Below the pieces are notes generated by a model. The model searched no databases. It was not told where the DNA came from and worked only from the letters and a program-made list of their open reading frames with translations. The position numbers and the translations under genes were made by a program. This document shows, in pieces, positions 6,140 to 15,425 of a stretch of DNA of 64,000 nt; position 1 is the first letter of the stretch, and each line of letters starts with the position of its first letter. The DNA comes from Phycisphaerae bacterium. Lineage in GTDB: Bacteria; Planctomycetota; Phycisphaerae; Phycisphaerales; Phycisphaeraceae. The stretch spans positions 1 through 64,000 of the forward strand of contig JAUHZU010000013.1 of NCBI GenBank assembly GCA_030425705.1, given 5' to 3'.

Positions 6140-6433
6140 ATGAACCAGCGTTCCCTGTCTGTCCTTGTCATCCTTAACGCCGTCCTCGTTGCGGCTATCG
6201 CGATGACCTTCGGTGCCGCCACGCCCCAGGCCCAGGCCCAGGGCATCGGCGGAGGCAGCTACCTGATGATCGCCGGCGACACCCAGCAGCGCCAGCAGCA
6301 GGCCGTCGTCTACGTCATGCAGGTCAACACCGGCCGGGTCGCCGCCTTCTTGGTCAATTCCGGTAACGGCGATGTCGACATCGTCGGTGCCCGTGAGATC
6401 GCCGCCGACATCAACGGAGACGGCGGCCGCTAA
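6140..6433 (+). CDS. Small secreted protein, paralogue of next gene
   Basis: 97 residues. Signal peptide about 1-34 (hydrophobic core then ATPQAQAQG). The mature part starts with a Gly-rich segment and a Gln-rich patch (TQQRQQQAVVYVMQVNTGRVAAF), and ends DINGDGGR. The start is set by a near-consensus AAGGAGGT seven to eight bases before ATG, one of the best ribosome sites in the window, which suggests high expression. The next gene has the same plan: signal, a beta strand pair with 'VxDSTSGK/VNTGR'-type turn, Gly/Arg end. Function unknown. Confidence 0.7.
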   Translation: MNQRSLSVLVILNAVLVAAIAMTFGAATPQAQAQGIGGGSYLMIAGDTQQRQQQAVVYVMQVNTGRVAAFLVNSGNGDVDIVGAREIAADINGDGGR

Positions 6434-6490: not shown

Positions 6491-6820
6491 ATGAACCGTA
6501 TCCAGACCGCCTGCTTCTGCCTGCTCGCCTCGGCCTTCCTCCTGGCCGGTATCCTGGTCGTCCGCCTCGACAGCGTGACCCAGGCCAACACCGCCTCGGC
6601 CGACCAGGTCATCGCCCAGCCCCAGTCCTTCTCGCTCATGACCGCCCGCACCCGCGGCGCGGACGAGTCCCTGTTTGTCCTCGACTCGACTTCCGGCAAG
6701 ATGGTGATTTACCAGCCCAACGTCGGCCGGCAGCAGCTCGAAGTCGTCCGCGCGTTCGACCTGTCCGAGCTCTTCGGCGGCGGCAACAACGGCGGCGGCC
6801 GCGGCCGCGGCGGACGCTAA
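6491..6820 (+). CDS. Small secreted protein with Gly/Arg-rich tail
   Basis: 109 residues. Signal peptide about 1-36 (FCLLASAFLLAGILVV, then ASADQ). The mature domain has SLMTARTRGADESLFVLDSTSGKMVIYQ, which parallels the AGDTQQ...VVYVMQVNTGRVAAF part of the gene just upstream, so the two look like divergent tandem paralogues. The C-terminus is GGGNNGGGRGRGGR. It lies 57 bases after its neighbour, and a strong terminator follows at 6853, marking a two-gene unit. ATG 6491 is chosen over a frame extension 45 bases upstream because it begins the signal peptide. Confidence 0.7.
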   Translation: MNRIQTACFCLLASAFLLAGILVVRLDSVTQANTASADQVIAQPQSFSLMTARTRGADESLFVLDSTSGKMVIYQPNVGRQQLEVVRAFDLSELFGGGNNGGGRGRGGR

Positions 6821-8339: not shown

Positions 8340-9230
8340 GTGACTGATTCCGAACCATCCATCCGCCGGGGGCTCGCCCGGCCCCCGTACCGGCTGATCC
8401 TCATGATCGCCGTGCTGGCCGTGGCTGCGGCCGCGACCTTCTCCGCCACGGGGCAGGGCGACGGCGGTCAGCCGGCCGACAACGCGGTCGGGACGTCTTC
8501 TCAACTCCAGCCGCCTGGGGGCAACGGCGCGGGCGACGCCGGCAACGCAGGCGCCCCGGCCAACGACGGGCTCAGCGATCAGCCGCTGAACCGTATCGGC
8601 CAGCTCTTCTTCTACGCCCCGGTGATCAACGGGCTCATCCTCGGGCTGTCGGTGCTCGCGCTGATGTTTTTTGTCATGTTCATGCTGACGATCAACAACC
8701 GGGCGATGGCCCCGCCGGGCCTGGTCGACGAGGTCGTCAAGCTGGTGATCCGGGGGGACTACGAGCGGGCGGCGGACGTCTGCCGCCGCAGCCGGGGCGT
8801 GTTTGTGGCCGACATCGTGCAGCGCTGCGTCGAGAACGCGACCCAGCAGCACGCGGTCATGCTGGACATGATCGATGCCGAGGGCCGGCGGCAGGCGGAC
8901 ATCCTCTGGAACCGCGTCAGCTACCTCGCGGACATCAGCAACGTGGCCCCGATGCTCGGGCTGCTGGGCACGGTGTTGGGCATGATCGACGTGTTCGCCG
9001 AGCTGGAGATCACCAGCGGCAGCATCACCGCCCAGCTCCTCGCCGGCGGCGTGGGCAAGGCGATGGCGACGACGATGTTCGGGCTGTCGGTCGGCATCCT
9101 GTCGGTGGTGCTGTACTCGGTCGTGAAGTCGCGGGCGACGCGCTCCCTCGCCGACGCCGAGCAGGCCGTGCACATGATCGCCGACCACATCAAGCGGGAC
9201 GACACGGCCCTGCCGTCGTCGCGCTCCTAG
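8340..9230 (+). CDS. ExbB/TolQ/MotA-type proton channel subunit
   Basis: Motor subunit of an ExbBD/TolQR-type complex in the inner membrane. It has an extra N-terminal hydrophobic helix (about 18-38), a Gly/Asn/Ala-rich periplasmic linker, and then the canonical three-helix channel domain. The hallmark segments are present: NVAPMLGLLGTVLGMI in the second channel helix and KAMATTMFGLSVGI in the third, with Thr/Ser residues in the pore positions. Proposed GTG start at 8340, preceded by GAGGA. The frame is open 42 bases further up to 8298. It is first of a tight four-gene set with ExbD-like, TPR and VWA genes. Confidence 0.9.
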   Translation: MTDSEPSIRRGLARPPYRLILMIAVLAVAAAATFSATGQGDGGQPADNAVGTSSQLQPPGGNGAGDAGNAGAPANDGLSDQPLNRIGQLFFYAPVINGLILGLSVLALMFFVMFMLTINNRAMAPPGLVDEVVKLVIRGDYERAADVCRRSRGVFVADIVQRCVENATQQHAVMLDMIDAEGRRQADILWNRVSYLADISNVAPMLGLLGTVLGMIDVFAELEITSGSITAQLLAGGVGKAMATTMFGLSVGILSVVLYSVVKSRATRSLADAEQAVHMIADHIKRDDTALPSSRS

Positions 9231-9248
9231 GATCTCCCGGAGAACGAC

Positions 9249-9665
9249 GTGGGCTTTGCAGCCGAATCCCGAGAACGCGCACGGCCGGTCCTGCCCCTGG
9301 CGGGGCTGATCGACGTGCTGTTCCTGCTGCTGATCTTCGTGATGTCGACCTACTCGATCCGCGAGCAGGAGCTGGAGATCGACGTCGGGCTCCCCGCCGC
9401 GGAGACCGGCGAGGCGGGGACCGCCGACGCGCTGAAGGTCGTCATCAGCTTCGACCAGGACGGCCGACTGTTCCTGGGCGACCGGTCCGTCGCGATGGAA
9501 GACCTGCGCGGTGAGCTGGAGGAGCTGGCGAGCTTCGCCCCCGACCAGCCGGTCATCGTGCGCGGCGACGCGCGGGCGCAGTACGGCGTGCTGCTGGAGA
9601 TCATGGACCAGGCCAAGCTCGCCGGGCTCAATGACGTGAAGCTGGCGGTCGTCCGGGAGGAATAA
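9249..9665 (+). CDS. ExbD/TolR-family protein
   Basis: 138 residues: a short cytoplasmic start, one membrane helix with the essential acid (PLAGLIDVLFLLLIF, Asp22, matching the ExbD/TolR proton-path Asp), and a periplasmic ExbD-type domain (RLFLGDRSV..., VIVRGDARAQYGVLLEIMDQAKLAG...). It pairs with the channel gene 18 bases upstream. GTG start, with GGAGAACGAC just before it. The next gene begins 2 bases after its stop, implying translational coupling. Confidence 0.93.
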   Translation: MGFAAESRERARPVLPLAGLIDVLFLLLIFVMSTYSIREQELEIDVGLPAAETGEAGTADALKVVISFDQDGRLFLGDRSVAMEDLRGELEELASFAPDQPVIVRGDARAQYGVLLEIMDQAKLAGLNDVKLAVVREE

Positions 9666-9667
9666 GT

Positions 9668-9702
9668 ATGCCCGATGCCCGATGTTCGATGATCGATGTC
9701 CG
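9668..9702 (+). repeat. Five tandem 7-base ATGnnCG units over a start codon
   Basis: Five head-to-tail heptamers (ATGCCCG, ATGCCCG, ATGTTCG, ATGATCG, ATGTCCG) begin exactly at the first ATG of the TPR gene. Because 7 is not a multiple of 3, successive ATGs fall in different frames. The first and fourth (9668, 9689) are in frame with the TPR protein. Confidence 0.85.
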
Positions 9703-12199
9703 GAAGATCGCGCGGTGGCTGCTGGTGCTGGCCGTCGCGATGACGGCGTCGCATATCGCGCACCGGCCGTTCTCGACGGCGTGGGCGCAGTCGGACGCCG
9801 AGCACCAGCAGTTCCTGTTTGCGTACAAGCTGCTGCAGCGGGGCGACCTGGCGGAAGCGGCGGCCGAGTTTGACGAGTACCTGGGCGCGTTCCCGCGTGG
9901 GGAGAAGCTGGGCGATGCGCAGTACTACCGGGCGCTCTTGCACCGCAAGGACGGCAGCAACGAGCGGGCGGCGGCGATGCTCGACGGCGCCGCCGAGCCG
10001 ACGCTCGTGCCCGGCTACGCGGTGGACCTGCTGCGCGGCCAGGTGCTCAGCGACCTGGACCGCTACGACGAGGCGCTGGTCGCGCTCGAGCGGATCGAGA
10101 CCGACGCGCTCGAGCCGCGGGTCGCGGTATCGGCGTACTACCTGCGCGGGTTGGCTTACCGCGGGGCGGACAACCTCGAGGCCGCGGCCGCCGCGCTGGC
10201 CGACGCCGCGGCGCTGGACACGCCCATGCGGGCGCGGGCGCTGCTGGACCTCGCGAAGGTGCAGGCGCTGATGGACGCGCCCGGCGAGGCGCTCACCACG
10301 CTGGACCGCTGCCTGGCTGTCGCCGACGCAGGCACCGCCCCCGAGGCCGCGCGCTTCGCCGGGGACCTCGCGTACAACCAGCCGGATTACGCCCGTGCGG
10401 TCGGGTACTACGGCACGGTCGTCGCGCGCTACCAGAGCTCCAACCACTTCGCGCCGTCGGTCACGGGCATGCTCTGGGCCCAGTTCGGCCAGGCGAAGTA
10501 CGACGAGCTGCTCACCACCTTCGAGCGCTTCCGCGAGGCGCTGCCCGTGCAGGACCGGATGGCGGCGTGGTACCTGGCGGGCTCGGCGGAGCAGGAGCTG
10601 GGGAACCACGAGCGCGCGGTCGCGCTCTTTACGCCGGTGTCGCGGGGCGACGGGTCCGTGCCGCTGCAGGAGAAGATCCTCTACAAACTCGCGGTGAGCC
10701 AGTACCACCTGGGCGAGCACGAGACGATGGCGCAGTCGATCTCGGCGCTGGGGCGGTACTTCCCGCAGTCGCCGCTGAAGGTGGACCTCGCGTTCCTGCA
10801 GGCGACGGCCGACGCCGAACGCGGTCAGGTGCAGCGGGGGGCGTCCCGCCTCAGCGCGTTCGTCGACGAAGGCCCCGGCACGCCGTACTACGCCCAGGCC
10901 CTGCTCCGCCGGGCGCACCTCTACGAGACCCACGGCCAGGCGGGCGCGGCGGCGCGCGACTACCGCGCCTACCTCGCGACGATCGAGGGCCACGACGCGA
11001 CGTCGATCCAGGCCGTCTTCCGCCTGATCGAGTTGAACACCGCGTTGGCCGAGCACGACGAAGCGAAGCAGCTGGCCGAGCAGGTGCTGTCGATCCGCGA
11101 GGCCGCGTTGCGGACCGCCGAGGTCGAGCAGGAGGCGCTGTACCGGTTGGCGGTCGCGGAGCGCTACCTGGGCCACCTCGATGCGGCGCTGGAGGCGCAC
11201 GACCGCCTGGCGGACCGGCACCCGCTGAATCCGTACCGGGCCGAGTCGTCCCTGGAGCGCGGGCTGATCCGCATGAACCTGGGCGACGCGGACCGCGGGG
11301 TGCCGATGCTGCTGGAGGCGGCGGGGTCCGAGTCGCTGCCGCTGCCCTCGCGGATCGAGGCGCTGCGCATCGCGGCGCAGCACTACGAAGACCGGGGCGA
11401 CAGCGACCTCGCGCTGATGCTGCGGCAGCAGATCCAGGAGGCGGCGGGCGTGGACGGGCTGTCAGACGGCGAGCGGTACTGGCTGGCGCAGACCGCGATG
11501 GAGGCGGGCGACGCCGAGGCGGCGCTGGGCTACCTCGACGGGCTGGAGGACGGGCGGGTCGGCGAGGATGCGGCGCTGCTGCGCGGGGTCGCGCTGCGGA
11601 CGGTGGGGGACCTGGACGCGTCGGCGCAGACCCTCGAAGAGCTCCGCGCGGTGAGCGAGCGGCTGACGCTCGACGCCTGGCTCGAGCTGGCGCGGACGCT
11701 TCGGGCACGCGGCGACGCGGCGGGCCGGCAGCAGGCCCTCGCCGAGCTGGCCGGGCTCATGAACACCGAACGCAGCCAGCGCATCGCGGCGCAGGCGCTC
11801 TATGAGTCCGGCGGCATCCGGCAGGAGCTCGCGGCGACCCAGCGCCAGCGCGGCGACCGGGACGCAGAACGCGAGCAACTCGCCGAGGCCCGCCGGGTCC
11901 TGAAGATGGTCGTGCTGCTGCACGCGGACCGCGCGGGCGACGACCTTGCCCAGCGGTCGTACCTCGAGCTGGTCGCGGTGGCCGACGCGATGGACGACCC
12001 CGAGCAGTCGGCCGGCCTGCTGAGCGAGTTGATCGACCGCTACCCGGAGACCGCCTTCGCCAAGTACGCCCGGGCCGAGCTGGCCGCCCGTACGGGCGAG
12101 ACCCCGCGTGCCGCGACGCTGCTGCGTGAGGTAATCGAGGAAACCGAAAATCAAGCCCTGCGCGAACGCGCCGAGGCCCTGCTGCGTCAGATCCGTTAG
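9668..12199 (+). CDS. Large secreted tetratricopeptide-repeat protein
   Basis: 843 residues. An N-terminal signal or anchor (WLLVLAVAMTASHIAHRPFSTAWAQ, cleavage likely after AWAQ near residue 40) puts the rest in the periplasm. The remainder is helical TPR-like repeats throughout, for example QFLFAYKLLQRGDLAEAAAEF, ...YYRALLHR..., AVALFTP..., ALYRLAVAERYLGHLDAALEAH, ending ALRERAEALLRQIR. No catalytic motif is seen. Position between the ExbBD-like motor genes and the TonB-like VWA gene (10 bases downstream) suggests a scaffold for that complex, possibly like the TPR partners in Tol-Pal or gliding machines; this is inference. The alternative in-frame start is 9689. Confidence 0.85.
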   Translation: MPDARCSMIDVRKIARWLLVLAVAMTASHIAHRPFSTAWAQSDAEHQQFLFAYKLLQRGDLAEAAAEFDEYLGAFPRGEKLGDAQYYRALLHRKDGSNERAAAMLDGAAEPTLVPGYAVDLLRGQVLSDLDRYDEALVALERIETDALEPRVAVSAYYLRGLAYRGADNLEAAAAALADAAALDTPMRARALLDLAKVQALMDAPGEALTTLDRCLAVADAGTAPEAARFAGDLAYNQPDYARAVGYYGTVVARYQSSNHFAPSVTGMLWAQFGQAKYDELLTTFERFREALPVQDRMAAWYLAGSAEQELGNHERAVALFTPVSRGDGSVPLQEKILYKLAVSQYHLGEHETMAQSISALGRYFPQSPLKVDLAFLQATADAERGQVQRGASRLSAFVDEGPGTPYYAQALLRRAHLYETHGQAGAAARDYRAYLATIEGHDATSIQAVFRLIELNTALAEHDEAKQLAEQVLSIREAALRTAEVEQEALYRLAVAERYLGHLDAALEAHDRLADRHPLNPYRAESSLERGLIRMNLGDADRGVPMLLEAAGSESLPLPSRIEALRIAAQHYEDRGDSDLALMLRQQIQEAAGVDGLSDGERYWLAQTAMEAGDAEAALGYLDGLEDGRVGEDAALLRGVALRTVGDLDASAQTLEELRAVSERLTLDAWLELARTLRARGDAAGRQQALAELAGLMNTERSQRIAAQALYESGGIRQELAATQRQRGDRDAEREQLAEARRVLKMVVLLHADRAGDDLAQRSYLELVAVADAMDDPEQSAGLLSELIDRYPETAFAKYARAELAARTGETPRAATLLREVIEETENQALRERAEALLRQIR

Positions 12200-12209
12200 G
12201 CCCCAGACC

Positions 12210-13961
12210 ATGCCCACCAAGAAGCCCGACCATTACGAACCCAGCAAGCTGGTGACCGCGCCGGGGCGTGTCCTCACCGCGGGGCTGGCGCTGAGCGTGG
12301 TGCTGCACGCGGGCGTCGGGGCGTGGGCGTGGGACAAGGCGCTGACCGACCGGGTCGCGTTCGACGAGCCGCAGGAGCCGGCCCGGATCAAGCGGGCGAC
12401 GCAGGACTACCTGGGCGTGTCGCTGACCGAGCAGGGCTTCGACGAGCCGATCGCCGGGCCGACCGCGCAGGAGATGAGCCAGATGCTGCTGGACGCGCCC
12501 CCGCCGGCGCTGGGCGGCGACCCGCTGGAGCTGGAACTCGAGTTGCGACCCGTCGAGGAGACGTTCGAGGGCATGTCCGGCGGGCTGGAGATCGATCTGC
12601 CGGCGTTCGAGTTGGACGGGGACGTGCTCTCGTCGCTAGAGAACCGCCCGGACGAGTTGGACTACAACCAGGGCGACCTGCCGGGCGACGGCGGCGGCAG
12701 TGGGCGGTCCGGCAGGGGCACGGGCAGCGCCGGGCTCGCGGGAGACGCGCTGGGCAACGCGGGCAGCGCGCCGCGCCGCACGGGGGGCGGCTCGTTGGTG
12801 GAACGGCCCGCGTTGGACGGCCCAAGCGGCGGGCCCGAGCCGATGGCCGACACCCAGCCCGGGCTCGAGGCGCTGCCGATCGACTTTGTCGACCTCGCAC
12901 TCAGCGACACGACCGAGATCGTGGTCCCCGAGAACCTGGACAACGACTTCGCCTACCGCGTCACAACGTACACACCTACCGACCGCCGCGGCCGGGCTAT
13001 CGAGGACGGCTACTTCCGCGTGGACATCACCGCCCAGCGCTCGCTGCGCAAGCTCGCGACGAGCCCCAAGGACGTGATCTTCATCATCGACACGTCCTCC
13101 AGCGTCCCGGCCGACTGGGTCGCGGAGGTGACACGCGGCGTGCGCGAGTCGCTGGTCACGCTTAACGAGGGCGACCGGTTCAACATCGTGCTGTTTAACG
13201 ACCGGGTCAGCCTGCTGTCCGAGGACGGCGTTTTGGACGCGACGCCCGAGCACTTCGCGATGGCACGCACGTTCCTGGCCGAGGCCGAGTCGGTCGGCTA
13301 CACCGACGTGAACGCCGCGATGCGCCAGCTCCTGGTCCGCGATGTTGACCCGAACCGGGTGTACGACCTGGTGCTCATCTCCGACGGCCAGTCGACCCGC
13401 GGCGTCACCAGCACCCGCGACCTGATCAACCTCATCACCCGCGACAACGACATGGTCGCGAGCATCTACTGCGTCGGCGTCGCGCCGCAGCAGAACCGCG
13501 AGCTGCTCAACTTCCTGGCGTACCGCAACCGCGGCTTCTCCGTCTACGCCGACCGCAGGGAAGACGCCGCCCGCGTCGTTGGCGACCTGATGAGCCGGCT
13601 GCGCTACCCGATCATCCAGAACGTTACCCTCGACGTCGCCGGGCTGGACGGCAACACGGTCTACCCCATCGACCTGCCCAACATCCACCAGGGCGAGACG
13701 TTCAGCGTCTACGGCCGGTTCGCCGACGCCGACGAGTTCACCATGCAGATCACCGGCAACAGCGGCGGCCGGGGCGTGTCGTTCACCTTCACCCGCGACC
13801 TGGACCTCGCGCCCGTCGGCGACGACGCCATCGCGACCCGCTGGGCGTTCTGGAAGCTGCACGCGCTGTACAGCCGCATCATCCAGGAGGGCGAGCAGCC
13901 CGCGCTCCTCGACGAGGTCCAGCGCCTGCGCGAACGTTACGGCCTGCGCACGCTCTACTAG
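12210..13961 (+). CDS. TonB-like anchor fused to a von Willebrand A domain
   Basis: 583 residues. A short basic cytoplasmic start is followed by one membrane helix with LSVVLHAGVGAWAW: Ser29 and His33 match the S-x3-H signature by which TonB/TolA engage ExbB/TolQ. Residues ~45-250 are an acidic, Gly/Pro-rich periplasmic region with no clear fold. Residues ~255-460 are an inter-alpha-trypsin/VWA module with a complete MIDAS: DTSSS (Asp294, Ser296, Ser298), Thr in GYTDVNAAM, and ISDGQS. A beta-rich C-terminal part (~465-560) and a helix follow. It is last in the ExbB-ExbD-TPR cluster. The likely role is a force-transducing envelope protein with a metal-dependent binding head; the ligand is unknown. 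Confidence 0.85.
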   Translation: MPTKKPDHYEPSKLVTAPGRVLTAGLALSVVLHAGVGAWAWDKALTDRVAFDEPQEPARIKRATQDYLGVSLTEQGFDEPIAGPTAQEMSQMLLDAPPPALGGDPLELELELRPVEETFEGMSGGLEIDLPAFELDGDVLSSLENRPDELDYNQGDLPGDGGGSGRSGRGTGSAGLAGDALGNAGSAPRRTGGGSLVERPALDGPSGGPEPMADTQPGLEALPIDFVDLALSDTTEIVVPENLDNDFAYRVTTYTPTDRRGRAIEDGYFRVDITAQRSLRKLATSPKDVIFIIDTSSSVPADWVAEVTRGVRESLVTLNEGDRFNIVLFNDRVSLLSEDGVLDATPEHFAMARTFLAEAESVGYTDVNAAMRQLLVRDVDPNRVYDLVLISDGQSTRGVTSTRDLINLITRDNDMVASIYCVGVAPQQNRELLNFLAYRNRGFSVYADRREDAARVVGDLMSRLRYPIIQNVTLDVAGLDGNTVYPIDLPNIHQGETFSVYGRFADADEFTMQITGNSGGRGVSFTFTRDLDLAPVGDDAIATRWAFWKLHALYSRIIQEGEQPALLDEVQRLRERYGLRTLY

Positions 13962-14135
13962 GCGGTCTCAGCCTCAGTTTCATCTCGCTTAGCACGACCC
14001 TTGTGCCTCTTATGCGAGTCATGGCAGAAGCCCAGCACTCGACGACCAGGTGGCCCGGGAACCCCGCGCCGGTTGATGCGTCTATCGCTGGAGCCGACCG
14101 TCCACGAATACACAGCCCCGATCTGGAGCGATACG

Positions 14136-15425
14136 ATGCCCACCCACGACGCCTTGTTCACCACCGCCGTCCTCGCCGGAGCCCTGATGGTGTCCCCCGC
14201 AGACACCGCCCGCGCCGAGGCCGCGCCGCCGCCCGACGACTGGGGCACACAGGTGGTCGCGGAAGGAAGCAACGGCCTGGCCGTGAACGTCTACCGCGAA
14301 CTGGCCGGGCAGGCGGCGGGTGGCAACGTCTTCTTCTCGCCGCTGAGCATCTCCGCGGCGTTGTCGCTGACCTACGAGGGCGCGGTAGGCGACACGATGC
14401 TCGAGTTCGAGCACGTCTTGGGCATCCCCTCGGACACGCTGGGCGACTGGGGCCGGCCGCAGTACCACCAGGCTATGTCCCAAGTGCTGGGCCTGCTCAA
14501 CGGCGCGGACAAGCCCTACGAACTGTCCGTCGCCAACGCGTTGTACGGCGAGCAGACGATGCCCTTCAACCCGCGCTTCGTCGCGGAGCTGAGTGAGCAC
14601 TACGACGCGGGGCTCGAGCTGGTGGACTTCAAGGGCCGGCCCGACGCGCAGCGCGAGCGCATCAACCACTGGGTCGCCGATTGCACGCACGACCGCATCC
14701 AGGACCTGATGCCTGAAGGGTCGGTCGACCCGCTGACCCGCCTGGTGCTGGTCAACGCGCTGTACTTCAAGGCCCGGTGGGCCAACACGTTCTCCGAACG
14801 CGCGACACAGGACGCCGCGTTCTACCTGCTGCCCGACGAGGCGGGGCCGGCCGAGCCGAGCGTGCAGGTGCCGCTGATGCGCCACCACGAGGAGCGTTTC
14901 GCCTACGGCGACTTCGACGGCTACGACGCGCTGGAGCTGCGCTACCAGGGACGGGACCTGTCGATGGTCGTGCTGCTCCCGGACACCCGCGATGGCTTGG
15001 CGGCGCTCGAGGCACAGTTGTCCCACGAGTTGATCGCGCAGACCCTCGAAGGCATGTCGGTGCAGACGGCCAATGTCTGGCTGCCCAAGTGGGAGATGAC
15101 GCTGGACTACGACCTCATCCCCGTGCTGCAGGCGCTGGGGATGGAGTGGGCGTTCGATGCCGAACGTGCCGACTTCCGCGGCATCTGCGACTCGGCGGAG
15201 GGCGAGGAGCTCTACATCACCGGCGTGTTCCACAAGGCCTTCATCGCGGTCGATGAAGTGGGCACCGAGGCCGCCGCGGCCACCGCGGTCGCGGTCGGCG
15301 CGCTTTCTGCGGCACCGCCCCGCGAGGTCGTCGACTTCCGCGCCGACCACCCGTTTGTCTACTTCATCCGCGACAACCGCTCGGGCGTGATCCTGTTCAT
15401 GGGCCGGGTCACCGACCCGTCGTAG
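14136..15425 (+). CDS. Secreted serpin, probable protease inhibitor
   Basis: 429 residues. A signal peptide (about 1-27, ending ADTARAEA) precedes a full serpin fold: NVFFSPLSISAALSLTYEGA, LVLVNALYFKARWANTF, and near the C-terminus FHKAFIAVDEVGTEAAAAT plus ADHPFVYFIRDNRSGVILFMGRV. The hinge GTEAAAAT (from Gly376 = P15) has small residues throughout, as in inhibitory serpins. Counting from it places P1-P1' at Leu390-Ser391, as in alpha-1-antichymotrypsin, predicting inhibition of chymotrypsin- or elastase-like enzymes. ATG 14136 follows GGAG and starts the signal peptide. It is a single gene; the target is unknown. Confidence 0.94.
   Translation: MPTHDALFTTAVLAGALMVSPADTARAEAAPPPDDWGTQVVAEGSNGLAVNVYRELAGQAAGGNVFFSPLSISAALSLTYEGAVGDTMLEFEHVLGIPSDTLGDWGRPQYHQAMSQVLGLLNGADKPYELSVANALYGEQTMPFNPRFVAELSEHYDAGLELVDFKGRPDAQRERINHWVADCTHDRIQDLMPEGSVDPLTRLVLVNALYFKARWANTFSERATQDAAFYLLPDEAGPAEPSVQVPLMRHHEERFAYGDFDGYDALELRYQGRDLSMVVLLPDTRDGLAALEAQLSHELIAQTLEGMSVQTANVWLPKWEMTLDYDLIPVLQALGMEWAFDAERADFRGICDSAEGEELYITGVFHKAFIAVDEVGTEAAAATAVAVGALSAAPPREVVDFRADHPFVYFIRDNRSGVILFMGRVTDPS

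Follow-up and report, generated by a model that had tools for sequence, protein, structure and literature searches.

A four-gene cluster of a Phycisphaerae bacterium encoding a proton motor and a putative vWA-headed force transducer

The four-gene cluster and its motor

We analyzed a 64,000-nucleotide stretch of DNA from a Phycisphaerae bacterium (GenBank assembly GCA_030425705.1, contig JAUHZU010000013.1, positions 1 to 64,000 of the forward strand; hereafter the window). Positions 8340-13961 hold four genes on one strand, which encode an ExbB-like channel, an ExbD-like protein, a tetratricopeptide repeat (TPR) protein and a protein with a von Willebrand A (VWA) domain. An earlier annotation made from the letters of the DNA, which we call the sequence-only reading, had placed these genes in a tightly packed cluster with gaps of 18, 2 and 10 bases, and both the list of open reading frames and the Pfam matches agree with it. 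The genome has a size of 4.1 Mb and contains five MotA_ExbB loci and four ExbD loci; the cluster lies on its contig C5. The features discussed below are as follows (aa, amino acids; E, expectation value; pLDDT, predicted local distance difference test; ITIH, inter-alpha-inhibitor heavy chain; MIDAS, metal-ion-dependent adhesion site).

8340..9230, + strand: ExbB/TolQ-like proton channel, 296 aa (Pfam MotA_ExbB, 81 bits, E 8e-23)
9249..9665, + strand: ExbD/TolR-like protein, 138 aa, with membrane Asp22 at 9312-9314 (Pfam ExbD, 85.6 bits, E 3.8e-24)
9668..12199, + strand: TPR solenoid, 843 aa, secreted as judged by eye (Pfam TPR_16, E 8e-17; NCBIfam TIGR02795)
12210..13961, + strand: putative TonB-like vWA force transducer, 583 aa (Pfam VWA_3/VWA, E 3.3e-8/5.6e-8; alignment; AlphaFold2 model)
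12294..12308, + strand: Ser29-x3-His33 in the membrane helix, the motor-binding half of the SHLS motif (23-member alignment)
12333..12929, + strand: linker, residues 42-240, mostly of low pLDDT, with an RVxRAxxD box near residues 60-66 (model and alignment)
12930..13958, + strand: ITIH-like head, consisting of a VWA domain, a beta-sandwich and C-terminal helices (structure match to ITIH1, 6fpy; ITIH4 profile)
13089..13103, 13302-13304 and 13383-13385, + strand: MIDAS residues, namely DxSxS (D294, S296, S298), T365 and D392 (alignment)

The first two proteins have the hallmarks of the ExbB/TolQ and ExbD/TolR families, with Pfam scores above cut-off, a pair of threonines in ExbB and a membrane aspartate in ExbD. 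ExbB residues T211, T245, P204 and S104 are invariant in all 30 aligned sequences (numbered from the start at 8340; the gene could begin at GTG 8340 or GTG 8298). The ExbD aspartate, already singled out by the sequence-only reading, is likewise invariant (30/30, in an alignment that omitted second ExbD copies scoring below 100 bits). In Escherichia coli ExbBD, Thr148, Thr181 and Asp25 are called essential (PMC12905483). By reading the sequences, without aligning those of E. coli, we take T211 and T245 as the putative pore threonine pair and D22 as the counterpart of Asp25. The extra N-terminal part of ExbB, previously described as an additional helix and a linker, looks, by eye, like a Sec signal peptide and a linker that precede the first true membrane helix.

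We also considered a defence system, represented by the Zorya proteins ZorA and ZorB. ZorA matches were weak, with an E value of 1.3e-4 at best, and fell on the MotA/ExbB core; the other three proteins of the cluster had no Zorya match at E 0.01, so we dropped this reading.

The VWA protein and the TPR solenoid

The sole membrane helix of the VWA protein is VLTAGLALSVVLHAGVGAWAW. TonB and TolA bind their motors through a helix motif, Ser-x3-His-x6-Leu-x3-Ser (SHLS; PMC12905483). In the alignment of 23 family members, position 33 is His in every sequence (23/23), and position 29 holds Ser (19 sequences), Thr (2) or another residue (2). A further 27 VWA sequences retain the helix His in 25 cases; it is missing in L181, where no ExbB was found, and in L220, where no motor gene adjoins. 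As a control, we took 28 stretches of DNA and inspected the 162 encoded proteins whose N-terminal region includes a hydrophobic segment. The pair is uncommon in this set, as 24 of the 162 contain [ST]xxxH within that segment: 19 VWA proteins of the window's family, one second-system vWA protein (described below) and four others, among which are two TPR proteins from the window's cluster type. This control left out the VWA proteins of L036 and L051, both of which carry the motif. Because the motor-binding Ser-x3-His pair is kept and the four genes co-occur, we regard the VWA protein as very probably a transducer of the TonB/TolA type that serves this motor. The sequence-only reading had proposed such a role without mentioning S29 and H33, and the pair lends it further weight.

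The AlphaFold2 model (mean pLDDT 70.0) consists of a confident helix at residues 18-41, a linker to about residue 240 that is mostly of low confidence, and a confident head. The RVxRAxxD box follows the helix, with D66 present in 23/23 and R62 in 21/23 sequences; the model predicts no strand there. A motor box has been reported for TonB and TolA (PMC12204202), and the RVxRAxxD box could be a candidate for the same element.

The head matches inter-alpha-inhibitor heavy chain 1 in structure (6fpy; Z 25.1, root mean square deviation 4.8 over 322 residues) and ITIH4 by sequence profile (E 5.2e-33). The MIDAS residues D294, S296, S298, T365 and D392 are each present in 23/23 family members, and the site, through which the head may bind a metal ion, is also complete in all 27 further sequences. 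Alignment and model thus agree with the earlier description of a single N-terminal helix followed by a complete MIDAS VWA domain. No TonB_C or TolA C-terminal domain was found in this protein, for which Pfam at E 0.01 gives VWA models only. The marine sortase-target VWA family TIGR03788, a distant match, was rejected as the identity of the protein: its E value of 2.3e-31 corresponds to 108.9 bits, against a cut-off of 551.65. A mostly disordered linker of about 200 residues connects the head to an inner-membrane helix, so the head should act in the periplasm and not as a surface adhesin.

The TPR protein scores above the cut-off of the YbgF/CpoB repeat model (NCBIfam TIGR02795; 100.2 versus 90.1 bits), and its AlphaFold2 model is an all-helical solenoid with a mean pLDDT of 91.2. 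By eye, its N-terminus and those of most relatives resemble Sec signal peptides and not lipoprotein signals. A loose lipobox pattern flags two of the 22 TPR sequences, one in a truncated protein and one before the hydrophobic core. These features, with the TPR_16 match, accord with the secreted 843-residue TPR protein annotated earlier. Because its gene belongs to the conserved set, the co-encoded periplasmic solenoid is the best candidate for a partner or adaptor of the VWA head.

Conservation of the gene set and related systems

We searched a sample of 61 genomes of the order for clear orthologues of the VWA protein, defined by an identity of 40% or more across 355 or more of the 583 residues; one genome, G004, was accepted on a 117-residue fragment at 62% identity. 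Such orthologues occur in 24 of the 61 genomes including the window's own, that is, in 21/37 genomes of its family and 3/24 from other families of the order. Twenty other genomes that matched only at 22-30% identity, mostly through longer proteins, were set aside. Flanking genes were read for 22 of the 23 other orthologue genomes (G004 was left out), and 20 of these 22 loci have the order ExbB-ExbD-TPR-VWA; the contigs of the remaining two, L042 and L046, end inside or just before the TPR gene. The four genes thus co-occur in related genomes; had they not done so, this would have refuted the sequence-only reading by its own test.

The gene set extends beyond this sample. We examined 47 loci from named genome records, of which the planctomycetotal ones overlap with the 61 genomes. 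Among the strong planctomycetotal matches, 21/25 have all four genes and 4/25 are cut by the contig end; all four genes are also found in Omnitrophota (L088) and Auribacterota (L094 and L095), with L089 cut by its contig. The remaining 18 of the 47 loci had a VWA match only, at E 1e-4. In L091 and L092, which belong with the B12222 phylum loci described below, the vWA gene by reading follows coaE- and rho-like open reading frames. In other planctomycetotal lineages, four of five loci with a VWA frame of 587-645 residues and sufficient flank contain all four genes (L177-L180). The fifth, L181 (6685-11239), has ExbD, TPR and VWA genes without an ExbB found, and its VWA helix also lacks the Ser-His pair, so that ExbB and the pair were possibly lost together. 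L182 and L183 were not counted, being short contigs with only a VWA frame cut by the contig end. A search of 294 genomes gave matches in 158 at E 1e-30, with four candidates scored per genome; many are longer VWA proteins, and we did not use this number as a family count. In a phylum sample around the Kiritimatiellota genome B12222, 26 of 96 genomes match at E 1e-30, and one of the 16 loci read (L216) has all four genes.

In total, we obtained 35 complete sets without near-identical pairs among them (the window, the 20 relatives, L067, L071, L075, L077, L085, L086, L088, L094, L095, L177-L180 and L216). A second ExbD gene stands between the ExbD and TPR genes in two of them (L049 and L071); the window has one. 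Because the synteny spans genera and phyla, we ruled out a chance neighborhood.

Force transducers with a vWA head were described in silico in 2025 by Williams-Jones et al. (PMC12204202), by whose account the class has no phenotype and no known function. In that description, which covers Planctomycetes and a Tichowtungia family, the vWA genes lie beside tolQ/tolR-like and TPR genes, the linker is disordered and has a predicted motor box, a conserved His seats the helix on the motor in AlphaFold3 models, and gliding is suggested. The full SHLS motif occurs there in 'many' members and a tolR-like pair 'often' in the Planctomycetes-Verrucomicrobia-Chlamydiae (PVC) group, neither being defining. 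A second, trans-pore class has an Asp in the vWA helix, no Ser-His and no tolR gene. The window's cluster is a member of this kind and is closest to the side-binding class: it shares the Ser-His helix, the disordered linker, the vWA head and the tolQ-/tolR-like and TPR neighbors, and differs in having one ExbD and only the Ser and His of SHLS. The helix contains no Asp, which with the Ser-His pair speaks for the side-binding class of that report over the trans-pore one. The earlier statement that this gene set had no known described function still holds for the function and not for the gene set. In a search of the openly licensed PMC literature, we recognized no other publication describing the four-gene set. 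To this, our analysis adds how widely the four-gene version occurs, its layout with a single ExbD, the ITIH type of the head and the joint conservation of the His and the MIDAS, as well as transducer genes without a neighboring motor and two systems in one genome (both described below).

Like TonB-ExbBD and TolA-TolQR, the cluster combines an ExbB/ExbD motor with a predicted side-binding Ser-x3-His helix, a linker and a C-terminal head. Unlike them, it has an ITIH-like VWA/MIDAS head in place of TonB_C and a co-encoded TPR protein, and the Leu and last Ser of SHLS are gone. In ITIH heavy chains, the VWA domain is preceded by a VIT domain. The window's protein shares with these chains (6fpy, 9c4f) the succession of VWA domain, beta-sandwich and C-terminal helices, whereas it is membrane-anchored and linked to a motor, with the helix and linker replacing the preceding domain.

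The window's genome also encodes a second vWA system with Ser-x3-His helices, on contig C12 (L056:2878-11613). It comprises two adjacent vWA genes, a gene for a 386-residue protein with weak TPR matches, one ExbB and two ExbD genes, and a gene for a 1050-residue protein with TPR matches. All 61 genomes of the order sample contain a match to its first vWA protein at E 1e-5. The weaker matches, which reach 2.5e-10, may represent other VWA proteins, and the neighbors were checked in four loci. Motor genes adjoin in L184, L185 and L187, and L186 ends too early. Across 12 loci of the second system, the helix His is present in 12/12 and the Ser in 11/12, with Ala in L170. In the single-contig genome G034 (L187:1-13858), both vWA-transducer systems are present, on opposite strands and separated by about 3.4 kb.

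We also searched the 61 genomes for components of the Tol and TonB systems. TolB_N (PF04052) was found in 0/61 genomes, including the window's own, whereas controls from Bacteroides, Caulobacter and E. coli were positive; the search did not extend to Pal or the TolB propeller. TonB_C and Plug each occur in 29/61 genomes, and neither is associated with the cluster (Fisher p 0.20 and 0.44). Eight of the 24 cluster-bearing genomes lack both; one of these, G004, is 70% complete. At G000 C9:47168-50224, a Plug-domain receptor and a TonB_C protein stand together on a contig without a MotA_ExbB match, so that the TonB there may borrow a motor.

Mechanism, alternatives and neighboring genes

We propose, with a probability of about 0.7, that the four genes form one proton-driven envelope machine in which the VWA head pulls on a periplasmic partner. 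The motor would consist of ExbB and ExbD, probably as a pentamer and a dimer, respectively, and the VWA protein would sit at the side of this motor by means of the Ser-x3-His helix, in the manner of TonB and TolA. The linker of roughly 200 residues would span the periplasm, and the ITIH-like head would grip its partner through the putative MIDAS metal ion. Proton flow through ExbB-ExbD would then pull the gripped partner. The TPR solenoid would work in the direction of the outer membrane, in a role comparable to that of CpoB and TolB in the Tol-Pal system.

Several points weigh against this proposal. We infer the partner, the direction of the force and the contact with the outer membrane, and the helix-motor complex is predicted from gene sequences and single-chain models. 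Of the SHLS motif, only the Ser and His are retained, positions 40 and 44 being Ala, and in two of the 23 family members, which come from the window's genus, the residue at position 29 is neither Ser nor Thr. About 1.4 kb separates the TPR and VWA genes in L046. Finally, in 15 of the 16 loci read in the B12222 phylum sample, neither a motor gene nor a TPR gene was recognized next to the VWA gene (E 0.01), and 14 of these 15 keep Ser-x3-His, which indicates that the helix motif does not depend on the operon; these motorless vWA genes may share a motor encoded elsewhere.

The cluster might instead serve as an outer-membrane stabilizer of the Tol-Pal type, in which the head would draw a partner in the outer membrane, or one bound to peptidoglycan, towards the site of division. 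This reading gains from the missing TolB_N and from the fit of the TPR protein to the YbgF/CpoB model, but the occurrence of the cluster in 24/61 genomes is patchy for an essential role and the second vWA protein, matched in every genome, is the better candidate; we consider it unlikely. A machine for attachment or gliding is less likely again. In the Myxococcus gliding machine, a TolQR-type motor works with a VWA protein, CglB, which is a separate outer-membrane surface adhesin, whereas in the window the VWA head belongs to the transducer itself. The intact MIDAS and the ExbBD-like motor would suit such a role, which PMC12204202 also proposes for vWA transducers by analogy with a Myxococcus VWA protein. 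Yet the head hangs on an inner-membrane helix through its linker and should therefore be periplasmic, which makes surface adhesion less likely and weakens the suggestion of surface attachment in the sequence-only reading. Moreover, among the neighbor families recurring in at least four loci, most of them judged without a library search, we recognized none by eye as adhesin or motility proteins.

The TonB-like helix and motor would also be compatible with a cluster that energizes TonB-dependent receptors in place of TonB. The VWA protein lacks TonB_C, however, and the cluster shows no association with TonB_C or Plug and occurs in genomes without either, which leaves this role very improbable. 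We give least credence to the VWA protein being a dimeric, ExbD-like trans-pore subunit: a motor-linked vWA class of this kind is proposed in PMC12204202, but the helix in the window has the Ser-His pair and lacks an Asp, and the adjacent gene encodes an ExbD with Asp22.

In textbooks, proton energy from the inner membrane reaches the outer membrane by way of TonB and TolA. A broader and distinctly tentative extension of the proposed envelope machine, which we hold to be doubtful, is that vWA transducers took over periplasmic force transmission in an order in which TolB_N was not found. The second system, matched throughout the sample, would be the core and the window's system an accessory. 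Through its invariant MIDAS, the accessory system would be a proton-driven, metal-dependent, integrin-like clutch working within the envelope, and the TPR solenoid would serve as the handle. If true, a conserved further design with a metal-dependent integrin-like head, in bacteria where TolB was not found, would show that nature has solved this part of envelope mechanics in several ways. The locus makes this directly testable, with a compact four-gene version, an invariant His33 and MIDAS, and a genome that holds two systems.

The genes around the cluster appear to be neighbors and not members of it. Two small secreted or single-helix proteins, encoded at 6140-6433 and 6491-6820, recur upstream of 12 clusters and have no Pfam match above cut-off. 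The first is matched in 50/61 genomes, including all 24 with the cluster and 26 without it, and its association with the cluster (Fisher p 0.002 over the 61 genomes) has a p value of 0.18 within the window's own family. Having tried both small proteins as cluster members, we read them as neighbors, and the breadth of the first points to an order-wide family of its own. BioB upstream and a serpin downstream were also rejected as members, being neighbors in part of the loci only. The serpin gene (14130-15425; Pfam E 1.1e-108) lies directly downstream of the cluster and, among the loci of the 22 relatives, was found only in L036, from the same genus.

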